From assembly GCA_020832375.1 (NCBI GenBank), contig JAFIEW010000001.1, positions 1 to 55,266 of the forward strand: DNA of 55,266 nucleotides. The letters run 5' to 3'. This stretch comes from Cyclobacteriaceae bacterium. Lineage in GTDB: Bacteria; Bacteroidota; Bacteroidia; Cytophagales; Cyclobacteriaceae. A model generated the notes under the pieces. The model was not told the origin of the DNA, searched no databases, and saw nothing but the letters and a program-made list of their open reading frames with translations. Positions 3,861 to 13,733 of this stretch are shown here, one piece after another (the first letter of the stretch is position 1; each line of letters begins with the position of its first letter). A program made the translations under genes and the position numbers.

Positions 3861-4406
3861 CTAACCTTCAATAAAAGGAAGGCTTAACCAATAATCTGGT
3901 TTATCTCGTGGAGCTTCATAGCTTATGAGCTCAAATGGATTTGAATCATCCTGAGTGATGGATGCATTTAATGAAAACTGCTCAAAGGCCCCTTTGGCCT
4001 CATTACGATATACTCTCTTAATTCCGGCTTGATACAAATCGTCAGTCCATGTAGAACGCATATATTGAGAAATCTTTATACTACTGCCTTTATAATCATC
4101 AAAGTTGGTAACTAAATCAGTAGCCTTTACTTCTTTCACGAGATCAGTGATTTCATCCATACCTTTCATGGCCTCTTGATCTAAAAGCAGCCCATACCAT
4201 TTAAAATAAACCACCGATCGCCCACTAGCATGATGCTCGTTAATATAAACTTCCAGAAATTTGTACTTAATCTTTAATAATAATGTCACCTTTTTATATG
4301 AATAAGGATGGCTAATCCACAAAACTAAAGTGTTCGTTTGAAATAACGCTAGCTTTGTAAGTTTAAACGCAGGATTAACGACAAACTCAAGGCTAGCTCT
4401 ATGCAT
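3861..4406 (-). CDS. Unknown small protein, possible STAS/SpoIIAA-like fold (181 aa)
   Basis: I do not recognise a named family with certainty. There is no signal peptide or membrane segment. From about residue 50 the pattern of alternating strands and helices (a strand ending near WYG, a helix, a strand, then NFDDYKGS) resembles the SpoIIAA/STAS-like proteins common in Cytophagales. The first 40 residues fit this poorly, so the true start may be internal. It is transcribed in the same direction as the M1 peptidase gene 48 bp upstream, so the two may share a transcript. A similar-looking small protein is at 46917-47354. The function cannot be given from sequence. Confidence 0.6.
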   Translation of the reverse strand: MHRASLEFVVNPAFKLTKLALFQTNTLVLWISHPYSYKKVTLLLKIKYKFLEVYINEHHASGRSVVYFKWYGLLLDQEAMKGMDEITDLVKEVKATDLVTNFDDYKGSSIKISQYMRSTWTDDLYQAGIKRVYRNEAKGAFEQFSLNASITQDDSNPFELISYEAPRDKPDYWLSLPFIEG

Positions 4407-4454
4407 TACTTCATCTAACTAAAGTACGGAGTAGAAAAACAAGTAAGAAAGCGC

Positions 4455-6080
4455 CTATTTTTTCATCTTTTTAAGATTAAATAGCTGTATTCTGTGATTT
4501 ACACTTATTTCTTTCTCATTAACCGATATTTTCTGCCATTTTGTACTACCTGACAATAATACAGGTTCTCCTCCAAGCACCACTTGAAAATTCATTTGAA
4601 ACTCATCGGATGCATTTGCCCAACGATAATAAAAGTGTTCGCCCTCAAAATAAGTTTGTAGCAGTGGTATCTCGGACTGAAACAAGTAGTGATCTAAGAT
4701 GGAAGAAGACGCCCCATTTGTATATGTATTGATAAAATCAATGATTTGCTGGCCTTCTACCACTTGCACTCTGAAACTTTCATGCAATTCTCGAAGCATT
4801 TTAAACCAAAGCTCATCGTCGGCCAAGCTTACCCTCAAGGTTTGCAGCATCCAGGTGCCCTTATAGTATTGATCAGTATCGGTAGGCTTGTCATTGACCC
4901 CATAGCTGCCAACAATAGGTCGCTGATTGCGAATCTGAGTCCGCTGCCTATTCAAATAATCAAGCGCGGTGGCATAGTCGTGCTTTTTTTCTAGGTACAA
5001 TGCCTCCAAATAGGTAGTAAAAGCTTCATGCACCCACATATGAGCCAAGTCGGATACGCTGATGCTATTGCCGAAATACTCATGGCCACTCTCATGAATG
5101 AGAATAAAATCAAAACCATACTCATTATTTTGCAAGTCATTACCGTAAGCGATAGCACTTTGATGCTCCATGCCCCAGTAAGGTGCTTCTACTATCTTAA
5201 AACCATCCTCCGGAAAGGGGTACGGACCAAGTAAGGCTTCAAATATGCGCAGCATTTCATCCGTTTGCTTGAAGTGCTCAAAGTCCTCCTCACTCCTATG
5301 GCTTAGCAAGTAAAAATCAAGAGGATACGAATTACCCTCAGCTGTGGTGAATGTCCTTTTTTGATGTACGAATTCGCCTAAGTAAAAAGTAACATTGTAA
5401 TTGTTGATGGGATGATGGATTTTCCAGTGCCACTGCTCCCGACCGGGTTCGCTCCTTTCAACAGACTGTTTGCGCCCATTGCTGATGGCCATGAGCTGAT
5501 CGGGAACATCCAACCGTACATCCATAGAGTCCGGTTCATCGCTGAGGTGGTCTTTGTTAGGCCACCACAGGCTAGCTCCCGTGCCTTGTACCGCTACGCC
5601 TATGTGTGGGTTGCCGGCTGCGTCCTCATCCCACACAAAGCCACCGCCCCATGGTGGACGCCGAGCAATTTGAGGCTTGCCGGAAAAATACAAGTCGAGG
5701 GAGTGGATACTACCCACTTCAGGTGCTTCATTCCACAGAATCCAAATTGCCGAATACTCCCTCTCAAATTGCATGTGCTCACCATTATAAAGCACAGAGT
5801 CAAGGCTCATATTAGGAAAAAGGTCAATTTGCTGGCGTTGCTGCTGATCAAGCACTCGAAAAGTCATGCGATTATGACCTGTAATGGATTTACTTTCAGG
5901 TTCAAAGCGCACGGTAAGATCATAATGGCCAACATCATAAAAACTTCGCTCCGCACTCAGGTAGCCACGTAGGCTATCGGGTCGATCGAAGGAGCGAGAT
6001 TGCCCCGCGGCCTCATTCCACGCTAGAAAAAAAGAAAACATAAGAAAACAAAAAGCTAATCGCATCGGCATAAGGGTCAT
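4455..6080 (-). CDS. Secreted M1 family zinc metallopeptidase (541 aa)
   Basis: An aminopeptidase-type enzyme that should remove N-terminal residues from peptides outside the cytoplasm. Residues 1-26 are a signal peptide ending AAGQ. The zinc site is HESGH at 329-333 with the third ligand Glu352, the exact HExxH-x18-E spacing of family M1. The substrate-anchoring GxMEN motif appears as GMEH at 303-306. At 541 residues it contains the N-terminal beta-saddle and catalytic domains but lacks the long C-terminal helical domain of full-size aminopeptidase N; short versions of this type are common in Bacteroidota. No sorting domain is visible, so it is probably periplasmic. The family call is firm; substrate preference is not. 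Confidence 0.92.
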   Translation of the reverse strand: MTLMPMRLAFCFLMFSFFLAWNEAAGQSRSFDRPDSLRGYLSAERSFYDVGHYDLTVRFEPESKSITGHNRMTFRVLDQQQRQQIDLFPNMSLDSVLYNGEHMQFEREYSAIWILWNEAPEVGSIHSLDLYFSGKPQIARRPPWGGGFVWDEDAAGNPHIGVAVQGTGASLWWPNKDHLSDEPDSMDVRLDVPDQLMAISNGRKQSVERSEPGREQWHWKIHHPINNYNVTFYLGEFVHQKRTFTTAEGNSYPLDFYLLSHRSEEDFEHFKQTDEMLRIFEALLGPYPFPEDGFKIVEAPYWGMEHQSAIAYGNDLQNNEYGFDFILIHESGHEYFGNSISVSDLAHMWVHEAFTTYLEALYLEKKHDYATALDYLNRQRTQIRNQRPIVGSYGVNDKPTDTDQYYKGTWMLQTLRVSLADDELWFKMLRELHESFRVQVVEGQQIIDFINTYTNGASSSILDHYLFQSEIPLLQTYFEGEHFYYRWANASDEFQMNFQVVLGGEPVLLSGSTKWQKISVNEKEISVNHRIQLFNLKKMKK

Positions 6081-7695: not shown

Positions 7696-8580
7696 ATGAA
7701 AATAGAAGAATTAATAGGAAATACACCGCTTGTTGAATTACAAAGAATACCAACCAATCCAAAGGTGAAAATTTTTTGTAAGCTAGAGGGAAACAACCCT
7801 GGCGGTAGCGTGAAGGATAGGGCGGCTTATAGCATGATCAATGAAGCTTTGAAGCGGGGTGACATCAAGCCCGGCGACCGCGTGGTAGAGGCTACAAGTG
7901 GCAATACAGGCATTGCTCTGGCCATGATCGCAGCGATCAAAGGGGTGAAAATGACGCTCATTATGCCTGACAACTCCACCGAAGAGCGCATTAAAACGAT
8001 GAAGGCTTACGGTGCGGAACTAATTCTGACGCCTGCAAAAGGCACCATTGAATACAGCAGAACGCTGGCTGAGAAAATGGCAGCGGAAGAGGGCTATCTG
8101 ATTTTAAATCAATTTGCTAATCCTGATAACTATAAGGCTCACGAACGCACCACAGGTCCTGAGATATGGGAACAAACTGGCGGAAAGATTACCCACTTTG
8201 TATCATCCATGGGCACAACAGGCACTATTATGGGGGTATCCCGCTACATGAAGCAAGTTTCTGATGGAAAGGTGCAGATCGTTGGCTGCCAGCCTACAGA
8301 TGGCTCCTCTATACCAGGTATAAGGCGATGGAGTCCTGAATTTTTACCCAAAATCTATGAGAAAGAGCGAGTGGATCAGATCATAGATGTGAGCGAAGCC
8401 GAAGCTAGAGAAATGGCAAGGCGCATGGCCAAAGAAGAAGGTATCTTAGCCGGCATGAGTAGTGGTGGGGCTCTTTCAGCGGCCTTGAGACTAGCAGATA
8501 CCCTCGATGAAGGAGTTCTTGTATGCATCACCTGCGACCGTGGAGACCGCTACTTAAGTTCGGATTTGTTCGAGGCATGA
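7696..8580 (+). CDS. cysM: Cysteine synthase, CysM type (294 aa)
   Basis: A PLP enzyme that makes L-cysteine from O-acetylserine and sulfide (or thiosulfate). The Schiff-base lysine is Lys40 in NNPGGSVKDR, and the phosphate/substrate loop is TSGNTG (67-72). The short length and the EGNNPGGS form of the lysine motif fit CysM better than CysK. It completes the pathway begun by cysE just upstream. A bidirectional terminator lies 150 bp downstream. The CysM versus CysK distinction rests on motif form and length, so thiosulfate use is inference. Confidence 0.92.
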   Translation: MKIEELIGNTPLVELQRIPTNPKVKIFCKLEGNNPGGSVKDRAAYSMINEALKRGDIKPGDRVVEATSGNTGIALAMIAAIKGVKMTLIMPDNSTEERIKTMKAYGAELILTPAKGTIEYSRTLAEKMAAEEGYLILNQFANPDNYKAHERTTGPEIWEQTGGKITHFVSSMGTTGTIMGVSRYMKQVSDGKVQIVGCQPTDGSSIPGIRRWSPEFLPKIYEKERVDQIIDVSEAEAREMARRMAKEEGILAGMSSGGALSAALRLADTLDEGVLVCITCDRGDRYLSSDLFEA

Positions 8581-8730
8581 GAGTGTATAAGTTGAGCGAA
8601 TAAAGGTGAACGAATTGATAAAGTATGTCGTGATTTTAAATCATAACTGCTCATTTTGTCAATTGGTCCTCTAAGACCATTTATTGTTATAAATTTACCT
8701 GTCTTATATCCTTTATCCTGATGATGATTT

Positions 8731-8764
8731 CAATAAAAAAGCCCCGACTGGGGCTTTTTTATTG
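8731..8764. terminator. Bidirectional terminator
   Basis: A perfect 15-bp stem (8731-8745 with 8750-8764) with loop GACT. The A/T flanks give a U-run in both directions, serving cysM (plus) and the BspA-like gene (minus), which converge here. Confidence 0.9.
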
Positions 8765-8787
8765 AAATGTACTGTTTGTTCTGCACT

Positions 8788-11067
8788 TTATTCTTTGATG
8801 ATGCGATAAGTCTTCGCATGATCATCGAGTCTTAGTAGATAAACTCCACCTGCTAGCGAGCTGATATCGATTTGGCCATCAGCCCCTTTTGTATTCACTT
8901 CATGAACTAATGAACCGCTCACTGTGTATACCCTGATTTTTTGAAAATTCTGGTTGCTTTGTAGATTTATAATTCCTGTACTCGGGTTAGGATAGAAAGA
9001 AACGCTTACTTCTTTTATCGTATTCAAGCTAAGTACAGACTCGACTGTAAGCCTTCGAGTGACAGGCTCAGCAGCTTCAAAATTATCATTACCAGCTTGA
9101 AAAGCGGTGATTTCTGTAGTACCTGCGGAAACGATAGTTACCATATTACCTTCTATGGTTGCAACAACAGGATTGCTACTCTCAAAACTAATTACCAAGT
9201 CAGTATCCGATGAAGCGGCTAATTCAAAAGATGCATCATTCACAGTACGATTTTCTAACTCAGCAAAAGTAATGGTTTGACTCGCTTTTTCTACCGTCAA
9301 AGTCCTTGTTACAGACTCTGCAGCTTCAAAATTATCATTACCCTCTTGCGAAGCGGTGATCTCTGTAGTACCTGCACCTACGATGGTTACTACATTACCT
9401 TCTATGGTTGCAACAGTAGCATCACTACTTTCATAAGTAATTTCTAAAGCTGAGCTAGTGGCAGCAGTTAGCTCAAAGGATGCGTCTCCAAAACTTCTGC
9501 TTGACAATTCAGCAAAGGTGATCGTTTGACTTAATTTTTCTACTGTCAATACCCTTGTCACAGGCTCTGCAGCTGCAAAATTATCATTACCCTCTTGCGA
9601 AGCGGTGATCTCTGTAGTACCTGCACCTACGATGGTTACTACATTACCTTCTATGGTTGCAACAGTAGCATCACTACTTTCATAAGTAATTTCTAAAGCT
9701 GAGCTAGTGGCAGCAGTTAGCTCAAAGGATGCGTCTCCAAAACTTCTGCTTGACAATTCAGCAAAGGTGATCGTTTGACTTAATTTTTCTACTGTCAATA
9801 CCCTTGTCACAGGCTCTGCAGCTGCAAAAATATTATTCCCTTCTTGAGAAGCGGTGATCTCGGTAGTTCCACCACCCACGATGGTTATAACATTATCAAC
9901 AATGGTTGCAACAGTCTCATCACTACTTGAATAAGTGACATCCAAACCTGAGCTAGAGGTAGCGGTTAGCTCAAAGGATGCATCACCAAATGTTTTGCTT
10001 GACAATTCAGCAAAGGTGATCGTTTGACTTGCTTTTTCTACTGTCAATGTCCTTGTCACAGGCTCTGCAGCTTCAAAATTATTATTACCTAATTGGAATG
10101 CGGTGATCTCGGTAGTTCCAGCACCTACAATGGTAACAACATTACCAGCTATGGTTGCAACAGTCTCATCACCAATTGAATAGCTGACATCTAAACCTGA
10201 GCTAGCGGTAGCAGTTAGCTCGAAGGGTGCATCACCAAAAGTTTTTGGCTCGATACTAGCAAAGGTGATATTTTGAACACAATCTGAACCTATAACATCG
10301 CCTTGAATATTCCAGCTAAAATCATTTACTAGAATATCTCGAGAAGAGTCATCACAATAACTTAAACCCTGTGCTCCTAGAGTCACATTGCTTTGTAAAC
10401 TACTTAGTTGACTCCATCCTTGCAAAGTCTCCGTATAATTGGAGCTTGATAGCACGGTCAATTCAAACATGGAAACCATAGAATTGACGCTACTCACATC
10501 CCAGCTTCCTAAAGATTGATTGAAGGAAGTAGCACCTGCAAACATGGAGTTCATACTTATTACACTAGACACGTCCCAATCGTCAAGTGGTTGATTGAAT
10601 GACGTAGCTCCATCAAACATGCCAATCATAGATGTTACGTTGCTAACATCCCAAGTATTAAGTGGCTGATTGAATGAACTAACAGTTCTAAACATCCCAT
10701 CCATGTTAGTAACATTACTCACATCCCAATGAACCAATGACTGATTAAACTCTGGTTCACGATTCAACCCGCTATTGAAAAGATTTCTCATATTGAATAT
10801 CCCACTAGTACATGTGAGAGCAATTCTTGGATCATTCCCATTAGAGTTAATATCAAGAACTCGAACACCGTCCCTAGTTCGCTTAGTAAAAGTTTTTTCT
10901 TCGCCGCCAATCACCAGAGTACCTGATGTACCAAAAGCGGCATCAGGACAAAGACAGGTGAGACCATCTTCGGCTTAACTAAAATTTGGATTGTCTTTGG
11001 CCACTTGTGAATAAAGTGGATTAATGGACAAAAGAAGAGCAAAACACAAAAGTAATTGTTGTTTCAT
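8788..11067 (-). pseudogene. BspA-like secreted surface protein with in-frame stop at codon 31
   Basis: Read from the ATG at 11067, the frame gives a signal peptide (MKQQLLLCFALLLSINPLYS), then VAKDNPNFS, then a TAA stop (10975-10977), and continues in the same frame without interruption to 8788. The part after the stop starts AEDGLTCLCPDAAFG, the usual mature start of this family, so only one codon is wrong. Downstream are BspA/DUF285 leucine-rich repeats (units WDVSNVTxMxxMF), five 83-residue Ig-like repeats (TITFAELSS..FGDASFEL), and a Por secretion system sorting domain (YPNPSTG at the start, YLLRLDD near the end). If the stop is real, only a 30-residue peptide is made, or a signal-less product from the GTG at 10914. 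Otherwise the protein is a 759-residue surface-displayed protein. A sequencing error or readthrough cannot be excluded. Confidence 0.85.
9327..9829 (-). repeat. Near-identical 249-bp tandem duplication in the Ig-like repeats
   Basis: Two consecutive 249-bp units (83 codons) encoding Ig-like repeats are identical by eye over essentially their whole length, while the other three units have diverged. This points to a recent unit duplication or gene conversion in the BspA-like gene. Confidence 0.85.
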
Positions 11068-11334: not shown

Positions 11335-11361
11335 TAAAAAAAGCGACCGAAGCCGCTTTTA
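11335..11361 (-). terminator. Terminator after the RluA-family gene
   Basis: On the minus strand the stem AAAAGCGGC / GTCGCTTTT closes on a TTCG tetraloop and runs into a T-tract, 5 bp past the stop of the 11366-12127 gene. Confidence 0.85.
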
Positions 11362-11365
11362 TTCT

Positions 11366-12127
11366 TTAAAAAATATAATCGATATCCTTATCCTTGAGGT
11401 TGATCTCCTCAAGGTCTAAAAACTGCTCCCAGAATTGATTCTCTGGCAAAGCAGCTCGCAACTTCATTGGTATCTTCTTAATCGGATGCTCAAAATATAA
11501 GTTTTTAGCATGTAAATTAATATTTCCTTCCGGATTCCGCTTTCCAAAACCATACTTCAGATCACCTCGAATGGGACATCCCATTGCGGCAAGCTGAACC
11601 CTAATCTGATGCGGCCTGCCTGTAAGGGGGCGTACTTCTAGCAAATAGTGGTCATTCATTTTGCCTAAAGACTTATAAGTCAACTCAGCACGCAAGCGAT
11701 CTTTGTCATATTCCTGTAAGTCAAAGGCCTCCACTTTATTGGTTTTGGTATTTTTCTTGAGGTAATGCACTAGCTTCCCCTCCCACTGAGGGGGTTTATT
11801 TTTCACCACCGCCCAATACACTTTGTGAATCTTACGGTTACGAAATAGTGCCGTCATTCGCTCAAGCCCTTTTGAGGTACGTGCAAGTGCTACCAAACCA
11901 CTCACTGGCCGATCTAGCCGATGAGCCAAACCCATAAATACATCGCCGGGCTTATTGTACTTATCTTTTACGTAAGCCTTGCAGTACTCTACCAAGGGTA
12001 TATCTCTGGTGTTATCGCCTTGCACGAGCATGCCTGCCGGCTTATTGACAATCAGTAAGTGGTTGTCTTCATAAACCACATTGACTACTTTCTTATAGTC
12101 TAGTTTTTCTAAATCCTTCCCTTCCAT
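11366..12127 (-). CDS. RluA-family RNA pseudouridine synthase (253 aa)
   Basis: It converts specific uridines in RNA to pseudouridine. The catalytic motif HRLDRPVSG is at 69-77 with the nucleophilic Asp72; NKPAGMLV (28-35) and RPLTGRPHQIR are further RluA signatures. There is no S4 domain, and the protein starts almost directly with the catalytic domain, as in the short RluA/RluC-type enzymes. It lies 1 bp after the stop of the RsuA/RluB-type gene, so the two are co-transcribed. The terminator follows directly. The exact target (23S, 16S or tRNA position) cannot be assigned from motifs. Confidence 0.93.
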   Translation of the reverse strand: MEGKDLEKLDYKKVVNVVYEDNHLLIVNKPAGMLVQGDNTRDIPLVEYCKAYVKDKYNKPGDVFMGLAHRLDRPVSGLVALARTSKGLERMTALFRNRKIHKVYWAVVKNKPPQWEGKLVHYLKKNTKTNKVEAFDLQEYDKDRLRAELTYKSLGKMNDHYLLEVRPLTGRPHQIRVQLAAMGCPIRGDLKYGFGKRNPEGNINLHAKNLYFEHPIKKIPMKLRAALPENQFWEQFLDLEEINLKDKDIDYIF

Positions 12128-12128
12128 C

Positions 12129-13733
12129 TCACTTAAAATGTTTGAGTCTGATTACTTCTTTTTCTGATAGGAATCGCCATTTTCCTCTCGGCACTTCTTT
12201 TTTGGTAAGGCCGGCATACATCACGCGATCAAGCTTTTCTATCCGATAGCCTAAACTTTCAAAAATACGACGCACGATACGATTTCTACCAATTACAATT
12301 TTGATTCCTAATGACATGCGGTCGGGAGTAACTACTGCCACTTCCTCCACCGGAGCGGCGCCATCTTCTAACACTACTCCAGCATCAATTTTCTCTAGGT
12401 CCTCTTGCAAGATTGGCTTATCGAGCCTCACTTCATATAGCTTTTCTACCTTATGGCTTGGGTGCATCAACTTATCAGCTAGAGCGCCATCATTGGTAAA
12501 AATCAGTAAGCCTGTGGTAGCTCTATCAAGTCGTCCTACAGGAAATACGTTTTCTTCACACGCATTTTTCAGTAGATCCATCACGGTTCTTCTACCATGA
12601 GTATCCGACTTAGTGGTAATATAGTCTTTAGGCTTATTCATCAAGATGTATACCTTACGCTCAGGCGATAGTGGCTTCCCTTTTACACTTACGCGATCTC
12701 TACGGGTTACTTTTAAGCCTAGCTCGGTAGTTATCTTACCATTTACTTTTACCTCACCTTCAGTAATCATCAAGTCAGCATCTCTCCTTGAGCACAGCCC
12801 CGACATCGAGATGTAGCGATTGAGCCTTATGGGAGTATCTTTAGTGATTTTCTCATCGCCTTCAATTTGAGGTGCATATTTGAGCGTACCAGGCACACGA
12901 TTGTCAACCTTAGCATCGTCATATTTTTTACCTCTTGGCGCTCGACGGTCATCTCTACCGCTTTTATCTCTAAACACGCGCTCAGGTCTTTCCTGCCTAG
13001 CTTGATAGGGGCGGTCGGACCTTTCTTGCCGTTCTTGCCTTTCTTGATAAGGGCGATCGGTTCTCACCTTTCTGTCTTGGTAGGGGCGGTCGGATCTATC
13101 GCTTTTATCAAAAACCTTTCTTTTTGGCGGCTCATAGCCTTCTTCGGCCTGCCTACCACTTACAAAAGTGTCAGGGTGAGCATTGACCCTTCGTTTGGGA
13201 TAACTTCGACCTCCTTCGCGGTAGTTTTTAGATTGGAAGTCATCTCCCGGCTTATTCCTATTTTGGAAGCCAGTTTGACGATATTCCGGACGTTTTTTGC
13301 GGTCAAATCCTTCATTAGACTCTTCGCCTCTATATTTTTTAGAATCTGGATTGTAGGCGCCATCCTTTCGGCTTTTACCTGAAAAAGGTCTTTCTTGCCT
13401 AAAGTCACGATCTTTGTCCGACTTGAAAGTTCTCTTTTTAGCGTGAGATGAGGACTCACCACGGCTTCCTTGATAGCGCTTAGCACCACTTTCGCCTTCA
13501 TAGTCCTTGCTGTATCGGTTAGGCTTAGAAGAAGAAAAATTACTTCTTTTGTCATAAGCACCCCCTTCATCTTTACGGTAGGTTGATGAATCAGAACCTC
13601 TGTCTGATTTTGAGCGATAAGGCTTACTTGATTTTTCAGCACTGTACCTTGAAGAATTAGCATCCTCACGACGCGATCGAGGGGCTGAGCCATTACTAGG
13701 GCGTCTGCCATCCTCTTGTTTTTTTCTGTTCAT
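12129..13733 (-). CDS. RsuA/RluB-type pseudouridine synthase with long disordered N-terminus (534 aa)
   Basis: The C-terminal 235 residues are a standard enzyme: an S4 RNA-binding domain (about 303-350, beginning IRLNRYISMSG) and the pseudouridine synthase domain with VGRLDRATTG and the catalytic Asp403. The first 290 residues are low complexity, very rich in Arg, Lys, Ser, Asp, Tyr and Gly, with imperfect repeats such as RSDRPYQ and RQER, so probably disordered and RNA-binding. Similar tails are known on this enzyme in Bacteroidota. It heads a two-gene unit with the RluA-type gene. It most likely modifies 23S rRNA, as RluB does; this is inference. The plus-strand frame 12867-13382 is an antisense shadow of the repeats. 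Confidence 0.92.
   Translation of the reverse strand: MNRKKQEDGRRPSNGSAPRSRREDANSSRYSAEKSSKPYRSKSDRGSDSSTYRKDEGGAYDKRSNFSSSKPNRYSKDYEGESGAKRYQGSRGESSSHAKKRTFKSDKDRDFRQERPFSGKSRKDGAYNPDSKKYRGEESNEGFDRKKRPEYRQTGFQNRNKPGDDFQSKNYREGGRSYPKRRVNAHPDTFVSGRQAEEGYEPPKRKVFDKSDRSDRPYQDRKVRTDRPYQERQERQERSDRPYQARQERPERVFRDKSGRDDRRAPRGKKYDDAKVDNRVPGTLKYAPQIEGDEKITKDTPIRLNRYISMSGLCSRRDADLMITEGEVKVNGKITTELGLKVTRRDRVSVKGKPLSPERKVYILMNKPKDYITTKSDTHGRRTVMDLLKNACEENVFPVGRLDRATTGLLIFTNDGALADKLMHPSHKVEKLYEVRLDKPILQEDLEKIDAGVVLEDGAAPVEEVAVVTPDRMSLGIKIVIGRNRIVRRIFESLGYRIEKLDRVMYAGLTKKEVPRGKWRFLSEKEVIRLKHFK

Follow-up and report, generated by a model that had tools for sequence, protein, structure and literature searches.

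In a stretch of 55,266 nucleotides (nt) from a Cyclobacteriaceae bacterium (assembly GCA_020832375.1, contig JAFIEW010000001.1, positions 1-55,266; hereafter the window), a minus-strand reading frame for a PARCEL/BspA-like surface protein is interrupted by an in-frame TAA at 10977-10975. We conclude that this gene for an accessory secreted protein of this type is a null allele created by an ordinary and probably recent nonsense mutation, a reading to which we assign a probability of roughly 0.8. It is best supported because the nonsense codon stands alone at a conserved hydrophobic position, the relatives are intact there and the frame carries no second lesion. An earlier note on the same DNA had offered four options (a fresh pseudogene, a reversible on/off state, stop-codon readthrough or a sequencing error); the first is the one that the evidence favours, whereas neither the switch nor readthrough gained positive support.

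A lone stop codon in a conserved N-terminal motif

The frame spans 2280 nt, from ATG 11067 to a normal terminal TAA (8788-8790), and apart from the TAA at codon 31 it has no further stops; the frame, its coordinates and the interrupting codon are as first described. The 30 codons before the stop (10978-11067) comprise the ATG, a signal-peptide-like stretch and the first mature residues (MKQQLLLCFALLLSINPLYSQVAKDNPNFS), with a maximum 12-residue hydrophobicity of 2.51, and across the TAA the window reads '..SQVAKDNPNFS*AEDGLTCLCPDAAFGTSGTLVIGGEEKTFTKR'. The note had counted 700 more residues to a sorting domain; the open stretch and the sorting domain, which is of type IX secretion system (T9SS) type A, hold up, but the distance between the two TAA codons is 728 codons.

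Both sides of the TAA are genuine coding sequence, as homology and codon usage show. The best homologue in the genome_contigs set, from Psychroflexus planctonicus (L080), is 57% identical over 101 residues spanning the stop; its frame stays open from a signal-peptide-like start through '..SQDNPNFQLAANGVTCLCPDATFGETGTLTINGEEKTFTKR', and it is laid out as the window gene is, with a signal-like start, '..SQDNPN' and then the N-terminal motif. Further relatives in this set, including a Psychroflexus metagenome-assembled genome (MAG), Psychroserpens and Balneolales, also match across the stop. In a codon-usage likelihood trained on 40 open reading frames (ORFs) of the window, this frame scored best both before and after the TAA. 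Homologues uninterrupted across the stop position are one mark of a null allele; another is the loss of an essential part, and here the TAA severs the signal-like start from all recognised domains.

The stop lies within a conserved N-terminal, or cap, domain (10786-10995, minus strand; N-terminal profile A2, E 3.6e-23, with this one TAA inside) and aligns with the third residue of the motif F-x-L-A-x-N-G-x-T-x-x-C. From the collected loci we gathered 147 distinct matches to the N-terminal profile, 14 of them gapped at the stop column and 133 ungapped, the window included. The 132 other ungapped copies carry Leu (104), Ile (11), Phe (6), Val (5), Pro (2), Arg (2), Tyr (1) or Met (1) at this column, a hydrophobic residue in 128 cases, and the window is the only one of the 133 rows with a stop there. 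In a predicted structure of the L080 homologue (mean pLDDT 96.0, pTM 0.90), the equivalent residue is placed in the first strand pair of the cap. The TAA therefore interrupts the mature protein in a conserved stretch, about 10 residues past a putative cleavage site that was judged by eye. This corrects the placement of the stop directly after the signal peptide. Likewise, AEDGLTC had been taken as the usual mature start, whereas relatives have a mature part that starts further towards the N-terminus, and the residue lost to the stop is a conserved hydrophobic one.

Consequences for export and age of the lesion

Translation from ATG 11067 would end after 30 codons and release the signal peptide with about 10 further residues. 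As no start other than ATG 11067 supplies an export signal, the type IX tail would never reach the Sec/T9SS route and the surface protein would not be made. The first ATG, GTG or TTG past the stop is a GTG (10912-10914), which opens a mechanical ORF of 708 residues without a signal-like N-terminus. The possibility that the mature protein starts independently at this GTG had been named as the case that would overturn the nonsense reading; we rejected it because the 20 codons between the TAA and the GTG are conserved in relatives and because its N-terminus is not hydrophobic (-0.28 compared with 2.51 at the real start). When all 37 downstream ATG, GTG and TTG codons were scored, the highest hydrophobicity was 1.97, at TTG 9945. 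The type IX export route itself looks present in the genome, to judge from an intact SprA and from 37 matches to T9SS tails, 36 of them over the TIGR04183 cut-off and all free of stops within the tail.

No second stop or frameshift was found in the 728 codons after the TAA, so that the gene displays no decay, which a young null need not do. That the frame is otherwise undamaged implies either a young lesion or a frame that the population preserves through reversion, recombination or polymorphism. Of the 6552 single substitutions possible in the remainder of the frame, 221 would create another stop. Assuming neutrality and indel shares of our own choosing, the 95% limit on mutations since the stop is 87 without indels, 23 if one in ten mutations is an indel and 17 if 15% are, which corresponds to a neutral-decay limit of about 0.8 to 4% per site, depending on the indel share. 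In a comparison of the 249-nt units that lie downstream in the same frame, with the phase set by hand, third-codon-position differences outnumbered those at either other position in all 10 pairs; this excess fits past coding constraint and is silent on the time since the stop arose.

Several points weigh against this interpretation. The evidence comes from one assembly of one genome and from sequence only, and an intact frame of 728 codons is equally expected of a functional gene with a tolerated stop. TTG 9945 does head a fairly hydrophobic stretch (1.97 versus 2.51 at the real start); that stretch sits inside an immunoglobulin (Ig)-like repeat and its first residue is acidic. Finally, the three surveys described below yielded no close orthologue against which the sites of the frame that have changed since the stop could be identified.

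Stops among relatives

We surveyed N-terminal-domain matches at the level of family, class and phylum; the surveys scored limited numbers of candidates per genome, and all counts given here are among the matches listed. The family survey returned 74 matches in 40 of 390 genomes, four with an in-frame stop: the window (TAA), G858 (TAG), G944 (TAA) and G876 (TAG). The class survey yielded four matches in three of 375 genomes, one of them new, and the phylum survey 116 matches in 39 of 375 genomes; in both, the window alone carried a stop, and neither the 113 new phylum rows nor the single new class row had one. With duplicates removed, the three surveys together gave 4 of 188 matches with an in-frame stop and 184 without. 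A query with the single N-terminal sequence across 390 genomes of the order had retrieved no relative, whereas a profile query did better; a four-row profile returned mostly repeat-only matches in the class.

The three other stop-bearing matches have their stops at positions other than that of the window. Those in G858 (a single contig) and G944 (a draft of 81% completeness), both of the same family as the window genome, carry one stop each within the same N-terminal domain and are otherwise open, and the copy in G876 is badly degraded. Among 63 tblastn rows from the genome_contigs set, four contained a stop; three of these were the window gene itself and the fourth was L084, from the Psychroflexus MAG (4001 onward), which has a signal-like start, a T9SS tail and two in-frame stops, TAG and TGA, elsewhere in the gene. 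The lesions thus seem scattered and different from one relative to the next, as ordinary gene loss would leave them. That stops in the N-terminal domain might be a habit of the family, as 4 of 74 had suggested, was dropped when the wider surveys added none. A regular-expression count found no stop inside repeat runs, either in the 123 runs of L080-L159 or in the 45 of the relatives' loci; because this count overlooked the TGA of L084, a codon that sits in a repeat, it cannot serve as a fair control, and we claim no enrichment.

Alternative explanations

The strongest competitor, which we still regard as unlikely, is that the true genome has a sense codon here and the TAA is a sequencing or assembly error in an intact gene. 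A single base decides the matter, the assembly is a draft of 215 contigs, and the remainder of the gene looks fully functional. On the other hand, the TAA sits inside a contig of 138,798 bases in a genome rated 99.99% complete. A Pfam scan of 40 of the 54 listed window ORFs, 33 of which were matched, revealed no gene split between neighbouring ORFs that match different parts of a single family model, and hence no hint of poor local assembly. Other genomes, including one assembled as a single contig, have comparable stops as well, though those may be errors too.

There is a slim chance that the stop is a tolerated or alternating state, in which a population keeps an intact PARCEL gene silenced by one codon and rescues it by rare readthrough or reversion. 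If true, this would explain why otherwise open members with a stop are met in several lineages of Bacteroidota (the window, G858 and G944, and L084 with heavier damage), and some of the 'untargeted' PARCEL ORFs left unexplained by Roske et al. 2010 (PMC2996958) would be accounted for as well. Marginally slimmer is the chance that the stop is simply tolerated, with low-level readthrough or reinitiation yielding small amounts of full-length or downstream protein while the stop serves as a damper. Such a role has been proposed for conserved in-frame stops by Belinky et al. 2021 (PMC7918605), who also argue that in-frame stops in bacteria often do not mark pseudogenes; the window frame, too, stays intact past its TAA. 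Like the stops described there, ours falls opposite a sense codon and is flanked on each side by 10 or more well-aligned residues. It differs in being seen in one genome only, whereas the filter in that text calls for the same stop position in at least two genomes, and no relative among the ungapped rows has a stop at this column. In addition, 20 of the 40 window ORFs are terminated by TAA (16 by TAG and 4 by TGA), and GTG 10914 lacks a signal-like start. None of the 35 transfer RNAs (tRNAs) found has a UUA anticodon, in a set that is probably incomplete: it lacks several of the usual tRNAs and comes from scoring 150 of 320 candidates.

Least probable of all is that the allele is a reversible off state, set by mutation or recombination, or a store of modules for expressed PARCEL genes. 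Roske et al. 2010 (PMC2996958) suggest a store role for PARCEL ORFs without targeting signals, describe such untargeted ORFs as being of unsettled status and report phase-variable relatives in mycoplasmas; besides the window gene, at least four PARCEL genes are present in the genome. Yet we found this N-terminal type nowhere else in the genome, where the most similar DNA matches at 72% over 179 nt; exact matches to four paralogue regions are no longer than 16 nt, and no short repeat tract lies at the stop. The frame is continuous through the TAA, and the sole tandem array detected by TRF is the in-frame 249-nt array downstream of the stop. Homopolymers of at least 5 nt in the transcribed region reach at most 7 nt, with none touching the stop; the longest inside the gene is 6 nt and away from it, and there are no dinucleotide runs of four or more. 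The features of a phase-variable contingency locus were thus absent as regards a frame-shifting tract and a near-identical donor, invertible segments not having been searched for.

Relation to known systems

Like the PARCEL/BspA-like proteins (DUF285, TIGR02167) described by Roske et al. 2010 (PMC2996958), the predicted product has 25-residue tandem repeats and an export signal encoded in frame, and it shares with them an accessory, scattered distribution. In the taxa surveyed there, the set consists mainly of lipoproteins and membrane proteins, whereas the window protein carries a T9SS tail. Read from the GTG, the window gene resembles the 'untargeted' class H of the same paper, the status of which is left open there between pseudogene, cytoplasmic protein and annotation artefact; unlike the members of that class as described, it owes its lack of targeting to a nonsense codon that closely follows a recognisable signal peptide. 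As in T9SS type A cargo of Bacteroidota (PF18962/TIGR04183), its sorting domain scores over the cut-off in a genome with SprA and 37 tail matches; unlike such cargo, its signal peptide and sorting tail are parted by a stop, so that no signal peptide is joined to the tail in one uninterrupted frame.

In the literature searched, neither this locus nor a T9SS PARCEL protein with a nonsense allele was the subject of any paper that we found. The gene offers a clean example of an accessory T9SS/PARCEL surface gene lost through one nonsense codon. It also provides one concrete origin for PARCEL ORFs that seem to lack a signal when read from a later start, the class whose status Roske et al. 2010 (PMC2996958) leave open, and the N-terminal profile built here lets annotators spot such ORFs that start too late. 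This is a small clarification of untargeted PARCEL ORFs rather than a new kind of system, and the gene by itself matters little.

Gene architecture and surroundings

Behind the cap domain, the PARCEL/DUF285 repeat region (10453-10794, minus strand) shows a 75-nt spacing, that is, tandem 25-residue repeats, and matches PF03382 (E 3.3e-38) and TIGR02167. It is followed on the same strand by 4.7 tandem 249-nt units encoding Ig-like (Big_2-like) domains (9062-10240; TRF, repeat search and PF02368) and by the T9SS type A C-terminal sorting domain (8794-8994; TIGR04183 over cut-off, PF18962). By these matches, the gene encodes a repeat protein of the PARCEL/BspA-like (DUF285) type that also has Ig-like repeats and ends in a type IX secretion tail. 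Two neighbouring 249-nt units are about 95% identical, which points to recent duplication of a unit; for the remaining units, identity to the reference unit is 67-83%.

In the model of the L080 homologue (4001-4750), the cap and the PARCEL repeats are predicted to form a solenoid that resembles those of leucine-rich-repeat proteins, given VIA-align Z scores of up to 14.8 against such proteins, although for repeat proteins scores of this kind may reflect only a common arrangement. No solved structure matched this model at E <= 0.001 in Foldseek, and none was found by sequence profile.

Four other PARCEL genes of the genome were examined; none has a stop inside its repeat runs, two are complete with a tail, and two run off contig ends. 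The latter (L160, at the right end of G000:C11, and L161, at the left end of G000:C137) share the same 55 nt, and the assembly therefore seems to be broken at a repeat inside these genes.

Terminator-like hairpins, each identified by a consensus match only, flank the window gene on both sides, and it is therefore probably transcribed on its own. One (11339-11360, minus strand) follows the upstream pseudouridine synthase gene. The other (8727-8768), with a 19-pair stem, lies between the gene and a convergent gene for a pyridoxal phosphate (PLP) enzyme (7696-8580); it is listed by the scan on the plus strand and is nearly self-complementary in sequence. The region at 11366-13733 on the minus strand holds two adjoining pseudouridine synthase genes, and because each covers nearly the full domain they are two genes and not one that has been split.
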